The notes below the pieces were generated by a model. It was given only the letters and a program-made list of their open reading frames with translations, had not been told where the DNA came from and did not search any database. 38,926 nt of DNA from a virus: IMG/VR virus record IMGVR_UViG_3300033145_003411, positions 1-38,926 of that record; one strand, 5' to 3'. Numbering within the stretch: position 1 is the stretch's first letter; each line of letters begins with the position of its first letter. Positions 1 through 38,558 of the stretch are shown piece by piece. The position numbers and the translations under genes are program-made.

Positions 1-357
1 GAGGTTGGTGAAATTCAATTCCAAAGAGATACTATTTTGCCAAAACTCAAAATGATTCGTGATAAAATTAACGAACAGATTATGCCTATGTATGATGAAA
101 ATATATTTGTTGATTTTGATAATCCTGTTCCGGCTGATAAAGAAATGGAATTAAAAGCAACAGAAATTTATTTAAAGCAAGGTGTTAAGACTGTAAATGA
201 AGTTAGACAAGAGATGGGATTAGAGGAAGTCGAATGGGGTGACGTTCCTTTTATTCCTACCGCACAACAACCGAAAGGGGGAGGGCAAGAAGATGTAGAT
301 GACATGGCTAAGGTTTTCGCAGATCAATTAATTAATAAGGCAAGACAAAACTTTTAA
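1..357 (+). CDS. Phage portal protein, C-terminal part (5' truncated by window edge)
   Basis: The reading frame is open from base 1, so only the last 118 residues of a longer protein are visible. The visible part (RDTILPKLK near the start, then FVDFDNPVPADKEME, then a helical stretch VNEVRQEMGLEEVEWGD and the proline-containing VPFIP) matches the C-terminal region of HK97/SPP1-type portal proteins. Portals form the dodecameric ring at the capsid vertex through which DNA is packaged and ejected. The downstream order (minor head protein, protease, capsid) is the usual one after a portal. The terminase genes should lie just left of the window. The call rests on recalled family similarity. Confidence 0.8.
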   Translation, partial: EVGEIQFQRDTILPKLKMIRDKINEQIMPMYDENIFVDFDNPVPADKEMELKATEIYLKQGVKTVNEVRQEMGLEEVEWGDVPFIPTAQQPKGGGQEDVDDMAKVFADQLINKARQNF

Positions 358-2538: not shown

Positions 2539-5061
2539 ATGCAAGGGTTAGTAAAAAAAGTTTTTGACCATGTTCTTGATGAGATTGGACCTCAGATTGT
2601 AGAGTTGTCTGAAAATTCTGATAATCGTTATTGGGAGAGATTTTTAAAAGCTATTGGCCCTGGCATGAGAAGTATGGAGTATCAGCTTAAGAGAGAATTT
2701 AGGAGGCAAGAAGCTGAAATTATTCGTGGCATAAGGAAACCATCAAAAACTTATAAGGCTAATCCTGTTTTTCCTGTAAAACCTTTGACTTTGGAACAGA
2801 TTTATCAATTTAATACCGAAAGGGCTAAGACTTTAACTCAGCTTGCTACAAAACCTGGTTATGGGAATTGTGCTGTTAAGGCTGGTAAAGAGAGTTTAAG
2901 GAAGTTAGGTATTGATGTTGATTTCAATTTACAATTACCAGAAGTAGGAGAATTTGTTGATGAATGGACCTTAAAACTTGCCGGCGAGGTGACTGGCTCA
3001 ACGGTTGATAATATAAAGAAAACTTTACGAAAAGGGATTATGGAAGGCGAGTCTTATCAACTGTTGACCGAAAGAGTAAAGAAGGCTTTTAAGACTTCGC
3101 CTGTTAGGGCCAATATGATTGCTCAGACTGAAGCCGTTAGAGCCGGTAACGGCGGTCAAATATTAGCTTGGGAAAAAACAGACGGCGCAATCTCAATGAA
3201 ACGCTGGTGGACAAGTAGAGACGAAAGGGTCTGTCCGTTTTGTCTAAGGATGCACGGGAAGGAAATTTCATTAAGAGATAATTTTGCTAATCTTGGTGGC
3301 AGTGTCGATGGTCTGACTTCTGAGGGTAAACCTGTTTCGATGTTGGTAAGTTATTCTGATGTTGGTTTTCCACCGCTTCATATTCGTTGCCGTTGTGTTT
3401 TAATTGGCGTTCCGAGGGGGGAAGAAAGTCTAAGGCCAGTCGTTGAAGAGCCTATGGCTGAGAAACCTAAGCCGAAGCCTAAGAAACCAAAACGGCGCCC
3501 TATAAAAGATATTCCAAATAATAGCAAAGGGGCGTCTGAGTTTGGAAAGAGGCTAAAAGATACTGATATTTCACCAGGAGGTTCAACTGGCGCAAAGATA
3601 TTTAAAGATAATGAAGGTTTTGATTGGGTAGTAAAATCTTATCCAGACGAAAGGCAGATTTTCTCTGAATGGATTTCTAATAATCTTTATAAACGTGCTG
3701 GTATAGATGTTCCAGAAACAAGGCTCGCTTTAATAGATAAAAAATATAGGGTGGCTACTAAATGGCTTGATGATGCAAGACCATTAGATATTTCTTCTTT
3801 AAAGGGTATTAATAAATCGTTTAAAGATGGGTTTGCAATGGATTCTTGGTTAGCTAATTGGGATGTTATTGGTTTAACTGGTGATAATGTAGTCAAAAGC
3901 GGAAGCAAATTTTTTAGAGTTGACCAGGGCGGGTCTTTGTTTTTTAGAGCGCAAGGCGGGCTAAAGGGTGATTTATTTGGATCGGTAGTTAAAGAGCTAG
4001 AGACTATGAGGTCGAAGGTATCTAGCCGCACTTCTGGTATGGTTTTTGGAGATTTAACAGATACCTTTGTTAAACATCAGATTAAAAAAACCGTTTTGAA
4101 ATTTACTGATGATGATTTAGCCTCTCTGATTATTGATTCTGGCCTTAGAGAAGTTAATCGTGAATATGCAGATGATTTACTTAAAAAATTGATTAGTAGA
4201 AAAAAATATTTAGAAGAGTTTACAAAACCTCCCTCTTCTAGCCTATCTTCTATTTTTAAGGATGCAACTCACCAAAAAGTTTTCGATGATTATTATGAAT
4301 CTTTTGCGAAGGAACTTTCTTTATTAAAAACCAAGGAAAGTAAGAAAGAATTTGTAAAAAATGTTTTTTCTACTGATACCGATCTTGAGCTTATTAAAAA
4401 TAGTATTGATACATGGAAGCATGATGCTCAGGCTATAAACCCTTTAAGGCTTAAACTTTTAGCCGTGGAGCTTGAGAATAAAATATCTGACCTTTCTGTT
4501 GCGCTTTCCTCGGAAGTGGATTTTATATATGAACATGAGTTGGTTAAAACCCTTACTTCGAAAAATATTAAGGGGTATATAAAATCGAGAGCATTAAATC
4601 AGGCTTATATACGGAATATGACAAAAAAAGATTCGATTACTTTGTATAGAGGCGTTGGAGGGAGCAGGGGGGAAGCCAAGAGGCAAGCTTTAACTTATTT
4701 ATCAAAAGGGGCCAAGGTTGATATTTCGTCTAATTGTTTGTCTGGGTACTCAAGTTCAGAACTCGTTGCTACTGATTTTGGGAAGGTGATTTACACTAAG
4801 AATGTAAGAGTTGGGGACATTATTTTTGATGAGGATATTATAAATATTTTATCGAGGGATTTTCATAAGGATGAAAAAGAATTTATTATCAAAGGGCTTT
4901 CAAACGAAGTGGGGGAGTTGGGTAAGGATATAAAAGCTATTAAAGTAGTTGACGATATTCCTTCACATGGTGTTGATCCTTTCGACCCTGATGAGATACT
5001 TCCAGATTGGGAACCGGCAGACGGGGGGATTTTTGGGCCGGACCCATTTGCTGATGACTAA
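2539..5061 (+). CDS. Minor head protein: gpF-like domain fused to kinase-like and ADP-ribosyltransferase-like domains
   Basis: An 840-residue three-part protein. Residues 1-290 are a Mu gpF/SPP1 gp7-type head morphogenesis region, with AQTEAVRAGN near 195, CPFC at 232-235 and HIRCRC at 281-286. A Pro/Lys-rich linker spans about 303-322. Residues 345-495 look like a HipA/PI-kinase-type fold: VVKSY with Lys366, SEW with Glu377, NWDVIGLTGDN with Asp442/Asp449/Asn450, and RVDQGG with Asp462. Residues 660-805 carry R-S-E ADP-ribosyltransferase signatures: LYRGVGG with Arg704, SGYSSS at 735-740 and DEKEF with Glu779 and Glu781. The tail is acidic and Pro-rich. Minor head proteins of this class sit inside or at the portal vertex, so the C-terminal domains could enter the host with the DNA, as T4 Alt does. 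The ribosome site is weak. The kinase-like assignment is the least certain part. Confidence 0.85.
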   Translation: MQGLVKKVFDHVLDEIGPQIVELSENSDNRYWERFLKAIGPGMRSMEYQLKREFRRQEAEIIRGIRKPSKTYKANPVFPVKPLTLEQIYQFNTERAKTLTQLATKPGYGNCAVKAGKESLRKLGIDVDFNLQLPEVGEFVDEWTLKLAGEVTGSTVDNIKKTLRKGIMEGESYQLLTERVKKAFKTSPVRANMIAQTEAVRAGNGGQILAWEKTDGAISMKRWWTSRDERVCPFCLRMHGKEISLRDNFANLGGSVDGLTSEGKPVSMLVSYSDVGFPPLHIRCRCVLIGVPRGEESLRPVVEEPMAEKPKPKPKKPKRRPIKDIPNNSKGASEFGKRLKDTDISPGGSTGAKIFKDNEGFDWVVKSYPDERQIFSEWISNNLYKRAGIDVPETRLALIDKKYRVATKWLDDARPLDISSLKGINKSFKDGFAMDSWLANWDVIGLTGDNVVKSGSKFFRVDQGGSLFFRAQGGLKGDLFGSVVKELETMRSKVSSRTSGMVFGDLTDTFVKHQIKKTVLKFTDDDLASLIIDSGLREVNREYADDLLKKLISRKKYLEEFTKPPSSSLSSIFKDATHQKVFDDYYESFAKELSLLKTKESKKEFVKNVFSTDTDLELIKNSIDTWKHDAQAINPLRLKLLAVELENKISDLSVALSSEVDFIYEHELVKTLTSKNIKGYIKSRALNQAYIRNMTKKDSITLYRGVGGSRGEAKRQALTYLSKGAKVDISSNCLSGYSSSELVATDFGKVIYTKNVRVGDIIFDEDIINILSRDFHKDEKEFIIKGLSNEVGELGKDIKAIKVVDDIPSHGVDPFDPDEILPDWEPADGGIFGPDPFADD

Positions 5062-5073
5062 GGGGGAATAAAT

Positions 5074-5283
5074 ATGCTGAAAAAGAAAAAAATTAAAGGA
5101 AAAATAAAAGTTGAAGGTATGCGCCGAGGTCCAAATGGGGTTTGGGTGTTTCGCGATTCATGTGAAGCCGAAGATAGTTGGCTTCAGCATACTAGAGCAT
5201 TGAAGGCTAATAAAAAGCGCAAGGCAAAAGAGATGGAAGATAATAGCATGTATGTTTATGTCGATAAAATCGGCGTTTTTTAA
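5074..5283 (+). CDS. Small basic hypothetical protein
   Basis: A 69-residue ORF starting 12 bases after the minor head gene with AGGGGGAA as ribosome site. The N-terminus and middle are very lysine/arginine-rich (MLKKKKIKGKIK; KANKKRKAKEME). No domain is recognised. Its position and spacing suggest it is the last gene of the operon before the promoter-bearing gap that follows. Confidence 0.58.
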   Translation: MLKKKKIKGKIKVEGMRRGPNGVWVFRDSCEAEDSWLQHTRALKANKKRKAKEMEDNSMYVYVDKIGVF

Positions 5284-5330: not shown

Positions 5331-5377
5331 ATGACTTGGAGGTTGTTGAAGATGGAATTGGTGAAGGAATTGAAAAT

Positions 5378-5515
5378 TTGATTATAGAACTTCAATCTAT
5401 GCCAATATCTTATGATGAGAATATTAGAAAAACAATGGATAGCTTAATTAAATCATTAGGCAAATGCAAAGGAATTGTTATTATTAGCAATGGACTTGAA
5501 GGGAGTATGTCTTAA
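5378..5515 (+). CDS. Possible short ORF coupled to the next gene
   Basis: The frame is open from about 5330 to a TAA at 5513-5515 that overlaps the next ATG (TAATG). The best-supported start is TTG at 5378, 9 bases after AAGGA (5364-5368), giving 45 residues. ATG at 5399 would give 38 and TTG at 5336 would give 59. The residues look protein-like (LIIELQSMPISYDE, then CKGIVIISNG near the end). No family is recognised. The overlap with the next start favours a real coupled gene, but the start is uncertain. Confidence 0.33.
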   Translation: MIIELQSMPISYDENIRKTMDSLIKSLGKCKGIVIISNGLEGSMS

Positions 5516-5782: not shown

Positions 5783-7504
5783 ATGAAAATAGATAAAGCA
5801 GATGAATTTTTAAATAAGTATGGGCTTGGCAAAGATAGCGTTATTAGTATCAAAGCTGTAAACGATTTTGATGTTGGTGAAGTAGATAAAGAGAAACGAA
5901 CAATCATTACTACTATTACAACTGCTGGTATTGATAGAAGTGGAGATATTGTTCGGCCTGACGGCGTTTCTTTAAAGAATTATCGAAAGAATCCTGTCGT
6001 GCTTTGGATGCATGGTAGCGGGGGGATGTTTTCGAGCGGTACTCCTGAACTTCCTATTGGTAAGAATTTATGGATTAAGCCAAACAACAAAGGTTTGGTT
6101 GCCAAGACTCAGTATGCTAATCACGAGTTAGCTGATAAAGTTTTTGAATTTAGGCAATCGGGATTTCCACTTGCTCAGTCAATTGGCTTTATGATCCAAG
6201 AAAGTATATCAAAGAATAAAGATGGCAAAAAAAACACAAAGTTTAATAACCAGCTAAAAGATTTAGTTGATAAGGAATGGCTTGAAGATAAGAATGTTGA
6301 TAAGGTTGATCGGATAATTACCAAATGGGAACTCCTCGAATATTCAGACGTTATCGTCCCGGCTAATCCTGAGGCTTTAGGTAGGGCCGTTGAACTGGAA
6401 ATAATTAAGTCAGATTTTCCAGACTTGTATAAAGAATCACAAGATAATGAAATGCTTATGTATAAGACTATGTTTCCTGATATGGAAATAAAAGACATAG
6501 TTGTTGTAGAGGGCAAAGAAGAAGAAGTAGTAGAGGGAAAGGAAACTAAAGATAATGAAAAAGAAAATATTACTATTTCTATTGTTTCTGAAAAAGATAT
6601 TTCAGAAGATAAGGCTTTAACGCACAATTCTAAGACTTCTGATACAGAGCCTGTTTGGGGGGATTTGGACAAGACTAAATTGCCGCAAAAAGCCTTTGCC
6701 GATGAGGGAGAGCCTGATAAGAAATCTACTTGGAAGTATCCCCACCATTGGGTAAAAAATGGGGGTAAGTTAGATGACAGTGGGATTTTTACAACTGGAG
6801 ATATGTTTTTACACAAGGGGGGACTAAATGCTGCTTGGGCTGCTGCACAAGGCGCAAGAACTGGTAAACCAGCTTCGGCGTCAATAATAGCTCATCTTTC
6901 AAAACACCGAAAAGATTTAGGATTGAAAGACGCTGAAGAGATAATCGAAAAGGAAATTTTAGCCTCTGAAATAGTTTCAGAAGCTATGCTGGCTTCAATG
7001 GAAGCTTGTTTGGCTGGAATGGAAATTGTTCAAGAAGAAATGAAAACTTTGTCTTATAGATTGGATGCTATTGAAAATGTTGAACTGTTGGAGGGAGAAT
7101 CGCAAAAAACTGAAATATCAGATAAAGACGATACTAATAAAACAGCACCTCTTATTACTGAACGATTTCTAGAAGAAAATTTCGATGAACTACTTGATAA
7201 AACTGGAGTATTAGATACTTTGAGCACATTAAGTGAAAGTATTGAACATCTGAGTTTTGATATACAAGCCTTGAAAGAGGACAAAGAAAAAGAAGATGAC
7301 ATTGTAACAGTTGTTGAAACTGAAAAAGACAAAGATAAAATGTCATTTGAGCAGGCTTTAGAAATAATGAAAGCGGCTAAGGAACTTGCGATGGTGGCCA
7401 TAAAGCCTGCAAGGGATCAAGGAGAGAAAGAAGGATATAAACAAGGTATTGAGAAGGCTGCCCTTGAGTTGGCGAAGGTCAGAGGGAAAACAGTTTTTGA
7501 ATAA
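5783..7504 (+). CDS. HK97-type prohead protease with long C-terminal (scaffold-like) region
   Basis: A 573-residue protein. Residues 35-205 match the S78 prohead protease family: TAGIDRSGDIVRPDG at 48-61, WMHGS with catalytic His77, AQSIGF with Ser133, and the EYSDVIVPANPEA block with Glu186. These enzymes cleave the capsid delta domain and scaffold during maturation. Usual family length is about 200-250 residues, so this one is more than twice as long. An acidic linker (235-290) leads to a second module at 291-385 (KLPQKAFA, WKYPHHWV and SIIAHLSKH), a motif set seen in other phage protease/scaffold fusions. The last 180 residues are acidic helices likely to act as scaffold and be removed. 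The ribosome site is GGGAAGAG. Confidence 0.86.
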   Translation: MKIDKADEFLNKYGLGKDSVISIKAVNDFDVGEVDKEKRTIITTITTAGIDRSGDIVRPDGVSLKNYRKNPVVLWMHGSGGMFSSGTPELPIGKNLWIKPNNKGLVAKTQYANHELADKVFEFRQSGFPLAQSIGFMIQESISKNKDGKKNTKFNNQLKDLVDKEWLEDKNVDKVDRIITKWELLEYSDVIVPANPEALGRAVELEIIKSDFPDLYKESQDNEMLMYKTMFPDMEIKDIVVVEGKEEEVVEGKETKDNEKENITISIVSEKDISEDKALTHNSKTSDTEPVWGDLDKTKLPQKAFADEGEPDKKSTWKYPHHWVKNGGKLDDSGIFTTGDMFLHKGGLNAAWAAAQGARTGKPASASIIAHLSKHRKDLGLKDAEEIIEKEILASEIVSEAMLASMEACLAGMEIVQEEMKTLSYRLDAIENVELLEGESQKTEISDKDDTNKTAPLITERFLEENFDELLDKTGVLDTLSTLSESIEHLSFDIQALKEDKEKEDDIVTVVETEKDKDKMSFEQALEIMKAAKELAMVAIKPARDQGEKEGYKQGIEKAALELAKVRGKTVFE

Positions 7505-7686: not shown

Positions 7687-8934
7687 ATGCCTGAGATCAG
7701 TGTTGAAGATTTGAAAGAAATGGTCGTTAGTGCTGTTGTTGAGGGAGTTAAAGAAACACAAGGTGAAGACCTTACTCGACAAGAAATGGATGACCATTTT
7801 AAGACTATGATGGAGGAACTTCAAAATCCCGAAACTGATGTAAAACCTAAATTTACTGGTGGGGATATTGATAGCGAAGATAATGTTATTGATGAGACCA
7901 AAGATTTTAAGACCTTTGGAGAACAGCTTCAGGCCATTGTTAAAGCCGGGTCCGGGAATAAGGAAATTGATCCAAGACTCGTTATTGAAAAGGCCACTGG
8001 ATTAGGAGAAAATATTCCTTCTGAGGGCGGATTTCTTGTCCAGCCTGAATTTGCTGCCGAGTTGATTAAAAGACTTTATGAAAATGGGCAAGTCGCTTCA
8101 CGTTGTAGGTCTTTGCCTATTTCGTCTAATAGGATTATTCTTAAAGCGGTTGATGAAACGAGTAGGGCTGACGGTTCCAGACATGGTGGTGTAAGGGCTT
8201 ACTGGAAAGATGAAGCCGTTGCTGGAACAGCTTCTAAACCTAAGTTTCGTGAAATGACTTTATCTCTTAAAAAGTTGATTGGTATTTGTTATGCGACCGA
8301 GGAACTTGTAGAAGACGCTGTTGCTTTAGAGGGCCTTGTAAGAGACGATTTTGCGGAGGAGTTTGCCTTTAAGATTGATGATGGAATTATAAACGGGACC
8401 GGCGCTGGACAGCCATTTGGCATTTTAAATTCTGCTTGTTTAGTTTCGCAGGCGGCTGAGACTTCCCAGGCTGCTGATACTGTTAAAGCGGCCAATGTTA
8501 TTAAAATGAGATCAAGAGCCTGGTCAAGAGGTCGTGGAAATTCCGTTTGGTGGATCAATCAGAATATCGAACCTCAACTTCATCAAATGACTCTTGCTGT
8601 TGGAACTGGTGGAGTCCCGGTGTATCTGCCCGCTTCTGGTCTTAGTGGAAGTCCTTATGATACGCTTTATGGGCGTCCGGTTATTCCTATCGAACAATGT
8701 CCGACTCTTGGTGATGTTGGCGATATTATTTTTGCCGATATGAGCCAGTATCTTTTGGCTACTAAGTCTGGCGGGAAGCTAAAATCTTCATCTTCAGTTC
8801 ATTTGAAGTTCTTGGAAGACGAGACTATTTTTAAATTTACTTATCGTGTCGATGGTCAACCGACTTGGAACAGTGCTTTGACTCCTTACAAGGGATCTAC
8901 TCTGTCACCGTTTGTCGCTTTGGCGGCTCGTTAA
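7687..8934 (+). CDS. Major capsid protein (HK97 fold)
   Basis: A 415-residue protein typical of the HK97 major capsid family. The first ~100 residues are acidic and helical (delta domain/scaffold, expected to be cleaved by the upstream protease). They are followed by SEGGFLVQPEFAAELIKR, the N-arm/E-loop region, LKKLIGICYATEELVEDA, the EFAFKIDDGIINGTG block and GQPFGILNS, then P- and A-domain sequence ending in a basic terminus. It assembles the icosahedral shell. The gene follows the protease after a structured leader, the standard order in this phage class. Confidence 0.95.
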   Translation: MPEISVEDLKEMVVSAVVEGVKETQGEDLTRQEMDDHFKTMMEELQNPETDVKPKFTGGDIDSEDNVIDETKDFKTFGEQLQAIVKAGSGNKEIDPRLVIEKATGLGENIPSEGGFLVQPEFAAELIKRLYENGQVASRCRSLPISSNRIILKAVDETSRADGSRHGGVRAYWKDEAVAGTASKPKFREMTLSLKKLIGICYATEELVEDAVALEGLVRDDFAEEFAFKIDDGIINGTGAGQPFGILNSACLVSQAAETSQAADTVKAANVIKMRSRAWSRGRGNSVWWINQNIEPQLHQMTLAVGTGGVPVYLPASGLSGSPYDTLYGRPVIPIEQCPTLGDVGDIIFADMSQYLLATKSGGKLKSSSSVHLKFLEDETIFKFTYRVDGQPTWNSALTPYKGSTLSPFVALAAR

Positions 8935-24039: not shown

Positions 24040-24252
24040 ATGAAAAAGCTTTTTGTCATGGTTATTCTTATGGCATTTTTCATAGTAGGTTGTGCTACTA
24101 TGCCGATAAAACTACCGGACAGACCAGCACTTATGGGGATTCCGATAAGAGGAGCCAATGGCGAAATAGCATTCTTAATCCCGGAATCGGAAATTAAGAA
24201 ACTTATATTGTATCTTGAACGGCTAGAAAGAATCGTTAAAGGAGAAAAATGA
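24040..24252 (+). CDS. Small lipoprotein, outer-membrane spanin candidate
   Basis: A 70-residue protein with a lipoprotein signal KKLFVMVILMAFFIVGC ending in a lipobox-like IVGC (Cys at about 18). A short Pro-containing mature part follows (MPIKLPDRPALMGIPIRG) and then a C-terminal helix (SEIKKLILYLERLERIV). Size and Pro-rich start are compatible with an Rz1-type outer-membrane spanin, though no clear inner-membrane partner is encoded in an overlapping frame. Its stop overlaps the epimerase start (ATGA). Confidence 0.6.
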   Translation: MKKLFVMVILMAFFIVGCATMPIKLPDRPALMGIPIRGANGEIAFLIPESEIKKLILYLERLERIVKGEK

Positions 24253-25313
24253 AAGTTTTAACAGTTGTAGGAGCCAGGCCAAATTTTATCAAGGCTGTTT
24301 CAGTTAGTAAGGCTTTGGCAAAAAATTATATAACAGAAGTTGTTATTCATACCGGGCAACATTATGATTATAATATGAATCAAGTTTTTTTTGATGAATT
24401 AGATATTCGTTCACCTAAGATAAATTTAGGAATAAAGTGCGATTCAAAAGAATTTTTAGATGAGATGGTGTTCGGAATTTCAAAACAGATTGAAGAGCAT
24501 AGTCCTGATATTGTTTTAGTTTATGGAGATACAAATTCAACTTTAGCCGGAGCATTAGCTGCTAATAAATGTTCAATACCTTTAGCCCATGTTGAAGCGG
24601 GACTTAGGTCTTGTGACAATGATATGGTTGAAGAACAAAATAGAATTATTACTGATAGGCTTTCACAATATTTATTCTGCCCTTCTGAATGGGCCAAAAA
24701 ACAATTAGAGATTGAAAGTATAGATGGAAGCATTTTTGTTGTTGGGGATGTAATGCTGGATACTTTTTTGAATTATTTTACTAAAGAATTTGTTTATTCT
24801 AATTTCCTTCCAGATGGAAGTGGACCGTTTGTCTTAGCTACTATCCATAGAAAAGAAAATGTCAAATTGGCTGATAAGATTTTAGAAATAATAAATAATA
24901 TTTCTTTGCCTGTTGTTTTCCCTTTACATCCGAGACTTGGGAAAGAAATAGATCAAAGTAAATATCAAAATATAAATTTCATTCCCCCTCAATCTTATGT
25001 CCATTTACATAGTCTTTTGTATCAATGTTCTTTTGTTGTGACTGATTCCGGTGGCCTTCAAAGAGAGGCTTATTACGCTCGTAAGAAATCTTTAGTAATA
25101 AGGGACAAAACTGAATGGAGGGAATTGGTAAGTGCTGGTGTTTGTCGTTTAGTGAGAATAGACGATTTAGAAAGTTTTGAAGATGATATTAGTTGGGCAA
25201 GAAATTCTTTTAATATTTTTAATTCATGGCCTGATGGGATTTATGGAGAAGGAAAGGCTAGTGAAGAAATAGCAGAAGTTTTGAAAGGAGTAATAAAATG
25301 GGATTCGAGTTAA
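24249..25313 (+). CDS. wecB: UDP-N-acetylglucosamine 2-epimerase (WecB-like, non-hydrolysing)
   Basis: A 354-residue protein of normal length for the family. Motifs in order are VVGARPNFIKA at the N-terminus, HTGQHYDYNMNQ at about 35-46, VYGDTNSTLAGALAAN near 90-105, HVEAGLRSCDNDMVEEQNR near 115-133, TIHRKEN near 198, PLHPRLG, and TDSGGLQREAY near 272. These are the substrate-binding and catalytic blocks of enzymes interconverting UDP-GlcNAc and UDP-ManNAc. It is placed inside the lysis cassette, overlapping a lipoprotein gene and the endolysin gene, which is odd for a sugar-nucleotide enzyme. Probable roles are altering host surface polysaccharide or supplying a sugar for virion modification. 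Confidence 0.9.
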   Translation: MKVLTVVGARPNFIKAVSVSKALAKNYITEVVIHTGQHYDYNMNQVFFDELDIRSPKINLGIKCDSKEFLDEMVFGISKQIEEHSPDIVLVYGDTNSTLAGALAANKCSIPLAHVEAGLRSCDNDMVEEQNRIITDRLSQYLFCPSEWAKKQLEIESIDGSIFVVGDVMLDTFLNYFTKEFVYSNFLPDGSGPFVLATIHRKENVKLADKILEIINNISLPVVFPLHPRLGKEIDQSKYQNINFIPPQSYVHLHSLLYQCSFVVTDSGGLQREAYYARKKSLVIRDKTEWRELVSAGVCRLVRIDDLESFEDDISWARNSFNIFNSWPDGIYGEGKASEEIAEVLKGVIKWDSS

Positions 25314-35084: not shown

Positions 35085-38000
35085 TTACCCACAATTAGAC
35101 CAGCCACACGAAAGGCATTTAGAGCAACCTTCCTCTAAGACAACGCTATAATTTTTACATTCTGCACAAATAGTTCCAACCCCTTCTTTCTGAAATTCAA
35201 CATCAGAATAATTTTTTTCAAGTATTTTAGCTACAGCATCAGGAACAGAATAAACAGGAAAGCCATAATTCCAAACCACTCCATTTCCTCTGATATTCTT
35301 TAATTGTTTGATTATTTCAACTACATCAATTCCAGAACGCAAAGCAAGAGAAATTAATCTTGCTATCGCTTCGCCATCGGCTGATTCATCTGCTCCTGAT
35401 TTACCTGTAATCAAGAATACATCAAAAGGTTTTTTAATATCGTTTTCGTCTTTTACCTCTCCTATGGCAATATATAAATGGCCTTTATTCGTTCTGATTT
35501 TTTCTATAATAGCTTCTGTCCTACTTGGTCTTTCAACCGGAGACCTTTTAGATACTTGAGCCTCAACCTCCCTTGAGCCCTCTCTATACATTGTAACTGA
35601 CTTGCATCCTGATTGATAAGCCTTATGAAACGTATCACTTATTTCTTTTTTTGTAATATTTTTTGGTAAATTTATTGTCTTAGATATTCCCGAATGGATG
35701 TATTTTTGAAGTGTTGATAACATTTTTATATGCTGTTCTGGTTTTATGTCTTTCGCACATGCAAAATATTCTGGAACCTTTTTACCCGGATGTTCATTTA
35801 CCCACTTTTCATACAATGGATGTTTTATTGTAATCGTTTCTTCTATACATTTCTTTTCAAACTCGAATGAAAATACAGGTTCACATCCACTTGAACAATT
35901 TGCTATTAGGCTTATTGAACCAGTAGGAGCTATTGTAGTTAGTAAACCATTTCTCCTTGTCATTCCAATTGAGACTAACTTTTCCGGTATACCTTTTTCT
36001 TTCCCTAGTTTTTCACTTGCCTCGTTTGCATAGTCGCTTAGAGCTTTCATTATCTTTTCAGATATTTCAATAGCCTCTTTACTCCTGTAATCTATCTCTA
36101 ATTTAATCAAAGTATCAGCAAGGCCCATAATTCCGAGTCCTATTCTTCTTGTCTTTTTAGCCTCTATTTCAAATTGACTTGTTGGATAAGTCGTAACATC
36201 AATAACATCATCAAGAAATCTAACTGAATAACCAACAATTTTTTCTAATGACTGAAAATCAAATTCTTTATTTTTAACAAACTTTGATAAATTTATTGAG
36301 CCAAGCACGCAACTGCCATTAGATGGCAACGGCTGTTCGCCACACTGGGCACACAGTATATTATTGTGCTTAGGTTTTTTAGACTTAGTCTCATCTTCAT
36401 TTACCATTATATAAAAATTATGATTACCATCAACAGTCCCATTATAAACATCTTCATACCCATCTTCTTCAACCGAAACAACAACAAAATTTAACTCAGA
36501 GGCTTGTTGTAAATCTTTGTACGAAGTAAAGCAATATTTATTAAACCCTGATTCATTTGAACAACGTATTCTATAATGGACGCTACTCTTTTTGCATGAA
36601 GATTCCCATTCTTTTCTTAGTGGGTTCCTTTTAAGATTTTTTCTAAGTATATTATAAATATACATTTGATTAATCCTAGTTTCCCGTTGCCTATTTTCAA
36701 GATACGAATAAAATTTATTTCTATTACCCTCATCTGAACGTCCATAATCGTTTGAACATTTCCAAGAACAAAACGAACGCTCTCTATTCCGCCATTTAGT
36801 TATAAAGGGATCTCCACACCACTCACATATTTTATTTACATAAATACAACCACTATCAAAAAATATATCCATATCTGTTTCTTTTATTAATTCTAAAAAT
36901 CTTTTGTATTCTCTAATATGGGAAGAATGTTCTAAAGCAATAACCCCTGCTTTTTTAGCCGCTGCTAACAACATCTTACTCGAACAAGTATAATCACCGA
37001 GAGAATATGAGCTAGAAGGCAAGCCGCTCGATAAACAATAATCATGCCATTCGTCCTTAGTAACTCGCCTACCCAATTCCTTAGAATACTTAATAGCTTG
37101 ATTAAAAACATGGTCTGGAGTAACCCCTTTGTATCTACCATTATTACACCCAGAATGGTCCTGTTTTATTAACCAATTTTTTTCAGGAAATCTATTCATA
37201 GGATTATTATCACCAAACATATTTAATGAATGTAATTTATCGTGATCTTCCTTAGTCATAACAATTAAATTATCAAAAGTATTATCTAACCCATTATAAT
37301 TATCATGATGAACAACCTCGTCAAATTTTAATTTGCGGCCAAGTTTAAACTCAGCCAATATCCTATGTTCTGATATGGTCTGCGAAAAGCCTGTATTAAT
37401 CCATTTATAATCCTGTGATTTAGAATTAGAATGGTTAAGTATTTCTTTAAAAGAAGCGTTGTATGAAATCATGTGATGCAATCTATCACCACTAACTAAC
37501 TCATCGGCTCTCTTTATACTGCCTCCCTTTGTATAAAACTTATGATTTTCAGTACAACGAACAATAGAGCCATCATCTAAAGTAACTTTAAGAATTTTCT
37601 TATTTTTACCAGTAAGGCGTGGTCTACGCATCATTTGAACTTCAACCTTCTGTATTTTTTTATTAAAACAAAACACAGGTATATCTTTATTTTCTTCAGC
37701 CAAAGTTTTAATATCAACATATTGTCTACCATCAGCTACGTAAACCATTGAGTTACCAACAATACAAGGGTTACATGATTCAATAGTTTCTATCTCTTTT
37801 AATTCACTACGTTTATTGATTTGATCAATAAAAATAACCGAAGGTTCGCCGGAGTTCCACGTCCCTGAAACTATCTCATCCCAAAGAGCATTCGGATTAA
37901 TAGTTTCTACTTCATTTCCTTTCCATGTCAAAGAGAAAGGTTCTCCAAGTTCTAATTTATTCATAAATTTATCTGTTATAGCAACACTTAAATTAAAATT

Positions 38001-38558
38001 AGATAAACGGCCTTCTTTGTTTTTTGATCTGACAAATTCAAATATGTCTGGATGGTCACAACGTAATGTTGCCATATTAGCACCGCGCCTAACACCTCCT
38101 TGTTTCATCTGACCTGTAGCAACATCGAAAATCTTTAGAAAAGAAACTGGTCCGCTTGCTACGCCGTTTGTATGCTTTACTTCTGATCCTTTTGGCCTGA
38201 GTGATGAAAATGAAAATCCAGTGCCTCCGCCTTCTTTATGAATAAGAACTGCTGTTTTTAAGGAATCAAAGATTCCTTTTATGCTATCGTCTATTCCAAT
38301 AACGAAACAAGCAAGTAATTGTCTTGTTGGTTTTTTGCCTGCATTTATAAGACATGGTGTATTAGGTAAAAATTTCAATTCATTCATCATTCTATAAAAT
38401 CTTTTTTCCCATTTATTCTTTGCCTCTTCTGATATTTCAGCAGAAGCAATAGAATTAGCAACACGATGTAGCATATCTTCTGGAGATTCTTTATCTCCTT
38501 TGCTTGTAATCAAATAACGAAACTCTAATATCTCTTTTGCATTCTCAGTCAAATTCAT
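35085..38558 (-). CDS. nrdJ: Adenosylcobalamin-dependent (class II) ribonucleotide reductase containing an intein
   Basis: A 1157-residue precursor. After removal of the 474-residue intein (265-738) the mature enzyme would be 683 residues. Features are LLACFVIG with redox Cys84, HKEGGGTGFSFSSLRPKGS at 107-125, ANMATLRCDHPDIFEF, the split finger loop NP/CGEQPLPSNGSCVLGS with radical Cys739 and redox Cys750, APTGSISLIANCSSGCEP, and a C-terminal Cys-rich tail (CAECK, GCSKCLSCGWSNCG) typical of NrdJ. It reduces ribonucleotides to deoxyribonucleotides in either oxygen state, with B12 cofactor from the host. RBS AAAAGGA precedes ATG. It is encoded 2 bases after the acyltransferase gene. Confidence 0.93.
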   Translation of the reverse strand: MNLTENAKEILEFRYLITSKGDKESPEDMLHRVANSIASAEISEEAKNKWEKRFYRMMNELKFLPNTPCLINAGKKPTRQLLACFVIGIDDSIKGIFDSLKTAVLIHKEGGGTGFSFSSLRPKGSEVKHTNGVASGPVSFLKIFDVATGQMKQGGVRRGANMATLRCDHPDIFEFVRSKNKEGRLSNFNLSVAITDKFMNKLELGEPFSLTWKGNEVETINPNALWDEIVSGTWNSGEPSVIFIDQINKRSELKEIETIESCNPCIVGNSMVYVADGRQYVDIKTLAEENKDIPVFCFNKKIQKVEVQMMRRPRLTGKNKKILKVTLDDGSIVRCTENHKFYTKGGSIKRADELVSGDRLHHMISYNASFKEILNHSNSKSQDYKWINTGFSQTISEHRILAEFKLGRKLKFDEVVHHDNYNGLDNTFDNLIVMTKEDHDKLHSLNMFGDNNPMNRFPEKNWLIKQDHSGCNNGRYKGVTPDHVFNQAIKYSKELGRRVTKDEWHDYCLSSGLPSSSYSLGDYTCSSKMLLAAAKKAGVIALEHSSHIREYKRFLELIKETDMDIFFDSGCIYVNKICEWCGDPFITKWRNRERSFCSWKCSNDYGRSDEGNRNKFYSYLENRQRETRINQMYIYNILRKNLKRNPLRKEWESSCKKSSVHYRIRCSNESGFNKYCFTSYKDLQQASELNFVVVSVEEDGYEDVYNGTVDGNHNFYIMVNEDETKSKKPKHNNILCAQCGEQPLPSNGSCVLGSINLSKFVKNKEFDFQSLEKIVGYSVRFLDDVIDVTTYPTSQFEIEAKKTRRIGLGIMGLADTLIKLEIDYRSKEAIEISEKIMKALSDYANEASEKLGKEKGIPEKLVSIGMTRRNGLLTTIAPTGSISLIANCSSGCEPVFSFEFEKKCIEETITIKHPLYEKWVNEHPGKKVPEYFACAKDIKPEQHIKMLSTLQKYIHSGISKTINLPKNITKKEISDTFHKAYQSGCKSVTMYREGSREVEAQVSKRSPVERPSRTEAIIEKIRTNKGHLYIAIGEVKDENDIKKPFDVFLITGKSGADESADGEAIARLISLALRSGIDVVEIIKQLKNIRGNGVVWNYGFPVYSVPDAVAKILEKNYSDVEFQKEGVGTICAECKNYSVVLEEGCSKCLSCGWSNCG
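36345..37766 (-). mobile_element. Intein with HNH homing endonuclease in NrdJ
   Basis: Splicing block A begins with Cys265 (CIVGNSMVYVADG). Block B has GSIVRCTENHKFYT with Thr336 and His339. The endonuclease region has SEHRILAEFKLGRKL, EVVHHDN with His417/418, GLDNTFDNLIVMT and DHDKLHSL (an HNH_3-like site) at 395-445. A four-Cys zinc motif CEWC...CSWKC lies at 578-601, and blocks F/G are VDGNHNFYI and NNILCAQ. The intein ends in Gln738 rather than the usual Asn, with Ala before it rather than His, and the +1 residue is Cys739. The NPC-GEQ insertion site is a known hot spot in reductases. Confidence 0.88.

Follow-up and report, generated by a model that had tools for sequence, protein, structure and literature searches.

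A phage minor head protein with a kinase domain and a DraT-like ADP-ribosyltransferase domain: a probable injected two-enzyme effector

The 38.9-kb virus record IMGVR_UViG_3300033145_003411 of IMG/VR (38,926 nucleotides, G+C content 37.5%), referred to in its full length as "the window" in this study, encodes a minor head protein of 840 amino acids at positions 2539-5061 of the plus strand. This protein combines three modules: an N-terminal MuF (gpF) domain, a kinase-like domain and an ADP-ribosyltransferase (ART)-like domain. We consider it probable that this head protein serves as the carrier of a two-enzyme effector, which is packaged in the head and ejected from it. The kinase domain belongs to a family found on many viral stretches, in which an ART is a frequent companion, and related stand-alone kinases occur in bacteria that also carry the ART DraT.

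Results

The protein and its MuF carrier

The gene is an uninterrupted open reading frame (ORF). A previous reading, made from the sequence without database searches (the sequence-only reading), had taken its product for a minor head protein fused to kinase-like and ART-like domains. Every residue named there (K366, E377, D442, N450, D462, R704, SGYSSS, E779 and E781) was found at its given position, and the three-domain arrangement was borne out by a Pfam match for MuF, by the fold of the kinase domain and by sequence motifs for the ART. The MuF domain (residues 157-289; positions 3007-3405, plus strand, as for all parts of this gene) matches PF04233 with an E value of 9e-19 and 68.7 bits, above the curated cut-off of 29.6, and both of the predicted gpF Cys/His motifs, CPFC and HIRCRC, are present in the translation. 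The N-terminal ~300 residues group with portal and head-morphogenesis families of PHROG. A Pro/Lys-rich linker (residues ~300-335; 3436-3543) leads from MuF to the kinase domain, which is separated from the ART by a spacer predicted, at low confidence, to be helical (residues 561-689; 4219-4605), and the protein ends in an acidic, Asp/Pro-rich tail (residues 805-840; 4951-5058).

A kinase fold and its conserved active site

Searches with tblastn revealed homologues of the kinase domain (residues ~345-560; 3571-4218) in approximately 19 phage records and three plasmids, the phages being those of Pseudomonas, Yersinia, Enterobacter, Morganella, Aeromonas, Gordonia and actinobacteria. When IMG/VR was scanned with a profile built from nine sequences, the domain was found to be encoded on at least 583 stretches. 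The residues that had been singled out for their kinase-like spacing proved to be nearly invariant among 93 kinase domains (K366 and E377 in 91, D442 and N450 in 92, and D462 in all 93). The catalytic set further includes N440, two residues before D442, and D462 opens a D-x-G-G motif; W441, G464/G465, G473, K476, E486 and R554 are also nearly invariant.

The kinase call was the riskiest claim of the sequence-only reading, and structure prediction followed by a fold search had been set beforehand as the test that could refute it. The AlphaFold2 model of residues 335-578, made with 115 alignment rows, reached a predicted local distance difference test score (pLDDT) of 93.8 and a predicted template modelling score (pTM) of 0.90. 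Foldseek against the PDB returned CtkA as the top match (E value 1e-5, template modelling score ~0.6), followed by LepB, Vps34/PI3K, choline kinase and HipA (E value 6.5e-4). The best matches of the model in BFVD were phage proteins labelled portal, ADP-ribosyltransferase or Nudix, together with Gordonia phage proteins. Matches to an argonaute structure (6qzk, E value 0.077) and to designed repeat proteins were set aside as chance. With tblastn homologues, conserved residues and a confident model, the homology is not due to chance, and the call passed its test: the domain is a true kinase fold whose active site is conserved. The fold and the conserved catalytic residues suggest an active protein kinase, and the retention of these residues makes a pseudokinase less likely.

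Neither Pfam nor NCBIfam has a model for this family, PHROG 3162 matches only 3 of 115 family members, and the window kinase scores below the Pfam cut-offs of both HipA_C (14.0 versus 30.5 bits) and HipA_2 (13.6 versus 27 bits). CtkA and HipA are the closest solved folds, and the N-x-D ... N ... D catalytic layout is similar to that of HipA. However, the window kinase has invariant motifs of its own (WLANWD, DxGGxL and RAxG..K), and it represents a separate family, which is apparently undescribed. Kinase domains inside large phage effector proteins are likewise known from polyvalent proteins, mainly in Verrucomicrobia-Chlamydia and Bacteroidetes; they belong to the serine/threonine/tyrosine-kinase superfamily, have lost the C-terminal subdomain and carry a conserved His and Asp (PMC5512222, Iyer et al. 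2017). Kinship with these kinases was rejected by their published description, as the window kinase carries NWD and falls on the HipA/PI3K side.

A DraT-like ART segment

The ART core (residues 690-790; 4606-4908) contains R704, SGYSSS, E779 and E781. Residues 692-786 match the Pfam family DRAT (PF07357) with an E value of 1.4e-5 and 24.9 bits, the sole hit to an ART family. This match spans model positions 162-249 of 256, i.e., the C-terminal part only. When aligned to DraT, the ART of the nitrogenase Fe protein, the segment shares the motifs TLYRG (R704), N-x-L..[FY][ST]S, A..FG and ExE(F/Y) (E779/E781), although the conserved N-terminal region of this enzyme is missing. The R, S-x-S/T and ExE motifs occur in this order (R704, GYSSS, E779/E781). 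A DraT hidden Markov model (HMM) gave the segment 19.1 bits, compared to 8.6 for the best of 2000 shuffles. These matches support a DraT-like ART of the R-S-ExE type, and from its ExE motif, the residue modified would probably be arginine.

No relatives of the ART segment were found among phages by tblastn. The idea that the window carries the same ART as other phage kinase proteins was dropped, as an HMM built from their ARTs misses the window ART. The DraT-like ART of the window is unlike the ADPrib_exo_Tox-like ARTs of the other kinase proteins, and the kinase-ART pairing therefore spans more than one ART type.

Kinase and ART as a recurrent cargo

Domain architectures were counted for the 83 kinase ORFs found at 80 viral loci. 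MuF was present in 40 of them, an ART was detectable downstream of the kinase in 42, and 12 had all three modules; kinase plus ART is thus a recurrent cargo. Three of the remaining post-kinase regions matched ART-PolyVal (shown for locus L044). Bacterial genomes encode 36 kinase proteins of the phage type, of which 19 had an ART and 8 had MuF. Kinase proteins with Pfam ARTs were also seen in Pseudomonas phage Jeremy, in fHe-Yen8-01 and phiT5282EW and on a phage-like plasmid of P. juntendi, and the homologue of Yersinia phage fHe-Yen8-01 carries the annotation "phage particle associated". Some kinase proteins carry Nudix.

Several of these proteins are arranged differently. In the P. juntendi plasmid (p2463-1, L007), a MuF protein is directly followed by a Nudix-kinase-ART protein, so that the parts are split over two genes. 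Two polypeptides (L052 and L110) have tandem kinase domains. Kinase proteins of ~720 residues are encoded on the chromosomes of Pseudomonas cerasi (L094), where a Nudix domain lies at the C-terminus, and Pseudomonas sp. KUIN-1 (L097), which is alike in length and kinase position. A common, unnamed C-terminal region of ~570 residues (L010, L013, L016, L020, L033, L041 and others) carries the motifs GG...S..DR.RRG, SGGA.Y.FTR and NETIFK. It had no Pfam or PDB family match, and its assignment as an ART was rejected for want of Pfam, PDB or ART-profile support; possibly, it is a new effector domain.

A cellular kinase clade with a phosphatase and DraT

The genome scan also gave small stand-alone kinases (L116-L168 and L009), mostly from nitrogen fixers, among them Methylomonas, Derxia, Rubrivivax, Thiobaca and Zoogloea. 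A dual-specificity phosphatase partner was present at all 45 cellular kinase loci, fused to the kinase at 6 and adjacent to it at 39; in the same genome set, every phage-type kinase locus lacked it. Rubrivivax gelatinosus and Methylomonas sp. LW13 are examples of bacteria with the pair. These neighbours were counted by HMM instead of by single-linkage clusters, as fused proteins had joined clusters. The HCxxGxxR loop of the phosphatase was intact in the members checked. The phosphatase-linked kinases form a single clade in the tree with a support of 100.

DraT was present in all 33 cellular-kinase genomes tested, most of them from diazotrophs (E value ≤ 2e-82 in each), which have one kinase apiece except for one genome with two. 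Background samples had DraT at a frequency of 5-12%: it was encoded by 12 of the 229 Gammaproteobacteria and by 35 of the 300 genomes from the order to which Rubrivivax belongs. Strong hits to the stand-alone kinase in these samples (genomes G003 and G158; G018, G308 and G008), of which G158 and G308 were new, all fell in DraT-bearing genomes. DraG-type hydrolases were found in 15 of 15 genomes checked, and at L009, L132, L145 and L159, the genes for the kinase, DraT and DraG cluster in a span of a few kilobases. We found no published description of a kinase-DraT link. An effect of nitrogen fixation could underlie the association. However, in the sample of 229 Gammaproteobacteria, only 10 of the 19 genomes with nifH over the cut-off had DraT, and nitrogen fixation alone would therefore not easily yield 33 of 33. 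The cellular kinase-phosphatase pair is a candidate for an unrecognized regulator of nitrogenase ADP-ribosylation. Given the pairing in phages and the co-occurrence in bacteria, kinase and ART associate in two settings: the window ART is fused in cis to its kinase, whereas DraT and the kinase of the diazotrophs are encoded separately.

Genomic context

The effector gene lies in the head module. A portal protein fragment is encoded upstream (37-357, plus strand; PHROG 2662, E value 2.2e-12), and a head maturation protease/head protein (5783-7504, plus strand; PHROG 617 and 80) and the major capsid protein (7687-8934, plus strand; PHROG 10, E value 1.9e-42) are encoded downstream. Neither MuF nor the kinase was detected in the terminase-portal-S49 protease-capsid modules of major-capsid relatives in the stretches examined, which argues that the extra domains are dispensable for head assembly and that the effector is accessory.

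Two small ORFs on the plus strand, 5074-5283 (69 residues) and 5336-5515 (59 residues), directly follow the effector gene and occupy the spot where MuF toxins often carry immunity genes; no ADP-ribosyl hydrolase or immunity gene was recognized directly downstream. Elsewhere in the window are a gene for the ribonucleotide reductase large chain (35085-38558, minus strand), which is split by an intein that matches an HNH endonuclease, and a UDP-N-acetylglucosamine 2-epimerase gene (24249-25313, plus strand; E value 6e-83), which perhaps plays a role in changing the host surface sugars or in glycan synthesis.

Discussion

MuF-ART fusions have already been catalogued (PMC5576092, PMC9503650). Like the window protein, MuF polymorphic toxins such as Bxa and the EFV toxin have an N-terminal MuF domain, a C-terminal ART and a position among head genes (PMC11699363, PMC5576092). 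Bxa, from a Bacteroides stercoris prophage, uses its C-terminal domain to ADP-ribosylate arginine and thereby kills E. coli (PMC11699363); it is similar in size to the window protein. Unlike these toxins as published, the window protein has a kinase fold between MuF and ART, whereas the word "kinase" is absent from the Bxa paper and the MuF survey (PMC11699363, PMC5576092). T4 Alt resembles it in being a head-packaged ART that is delivered at infection (PMC9503650). In contrast to Alt, the window ART hits DRAT and no other ART family in Pfam. To our knowledge, Alt does not join MuF to a kinase. SPP1-type gp7, which the sequence-only reading had also offered as an ART-fusion precedent, has no toxin domain (PMC5576092) and is a precedent for the carrier only.

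From what is known of the MuF family and from the position of the gene between portal and capsid genes, the MuF part would, as the head assembles, anchor the protein at its portal end, and the protein, or its C-terminal part, would enter the new host along with the DNA. An injected payload fits the MuF carrier and the precedents of T4 Alt and Bxa (PMC11699363), and the particle-associated annotation in fHe-Yen8-01 is consistent with it. Within the host, the kinase domain, of HipA/CtkA/PI3K type, would phosphorylate a host target, and the DraT-like domain may ADP-ribosylate a host protein, probably on arginine. Both enzymes probably hit the same target or pathway, as the kinase recurs beside phage ARTs and co-occurs in trans with bacterial DraT.

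Several observations weigh against this proposal, all the evidence for which is computational. The DRAT match is 0.1 bit short of the curated cut-off of 25.0, and the ART call is upheld by sequence, through the DRAT match, the motif alignment and the shuffles; the structure prediction for the segment, from a shallow alignment with three DraT rows, had a pLDDT of 42, and this low-confidence model gave no matches in a fold search. Scans of IMG/VR with the whole protein, the ART and the MuF domain returned no relatives of the window protein in which its ART residues could be compared. Approximately 24 viral kinase proteins end in the ~570-residue region instead of an ART. Finally, as the cellular kinases form one clade, the 33 DraT genomes are not independent cases, which weakens the statistic.

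The two enzymes might instead hit unrelated targets, joined only by a convenient MuF vehicle. Unrelated enzymes are indeed combined in polyvalent and MuF proteins (PMC5512222, PMC9503650), and some kinase proteins have no detected ART, or carry Nudix or the unnamed C-terminal region. However, the pairing is frequent and extends across DraT-like, ADPrib_exo_Tox-like and ART-PolyVal types, and DraT co-occurs with the cellular clade; we therefore regard two independent effectors as a serious but considerably weaker alternative.

It is less probable still that the kinase-fold domain is no protein kinase, and that it autoinhibits the ART until ejection or transfers another group, e.g., AMP. This domain directly precedes the ART in many proteins, and kinase folds are able to AMPylate (SelO) or glutamylate (SidJ). 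Yet the K, E, D, N and DxGG residues are nearly invariant in ART-free and stand-alone proteins as well, pointing to catalysis of its own, and the phosphatase partner of the cellular form, with its loop intact in the members checked, suggests reversible phosphorylation. A purely structural protein, in which the extra domains have decayed or serve head assembly only, would agree with the location of the gene in the head module, but the intact ORF, the complete set of kinase catalytic residues and the capsid relatives' modules lacking detectable MuF or kinase make it very improbable.

The injected two-enzyme effector can be taken one step further, to a kinase family that works specifically alongside arginine ADP-ribosylation, although we think this rather unlikely. 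If true, the diazotroph kinase-phosphatase switch would act on the DraT/DraG/nitrogenase circuit, and one injected phage protein would both phosphorylate and ADP-ribosylate the same target; alternatively, the kinase would phosphorylate ADP-ribose itself, blocking its removal by host hydrolases.

The window protein thus extends the known MuF-effector theme by an apparently undescribed kinase family: MuF-ART fusions were known, and a kinase domain between MuF and ART was not found in the literature searched. This kinase is encoded on hundreds of viral stretches and yet lies outside the Pfam and NCBIfam models. Its cellular clade, with a phosphatase next to it and DraT in every genome tested, provides a concrete genetic lead for the control of nitrogenase.
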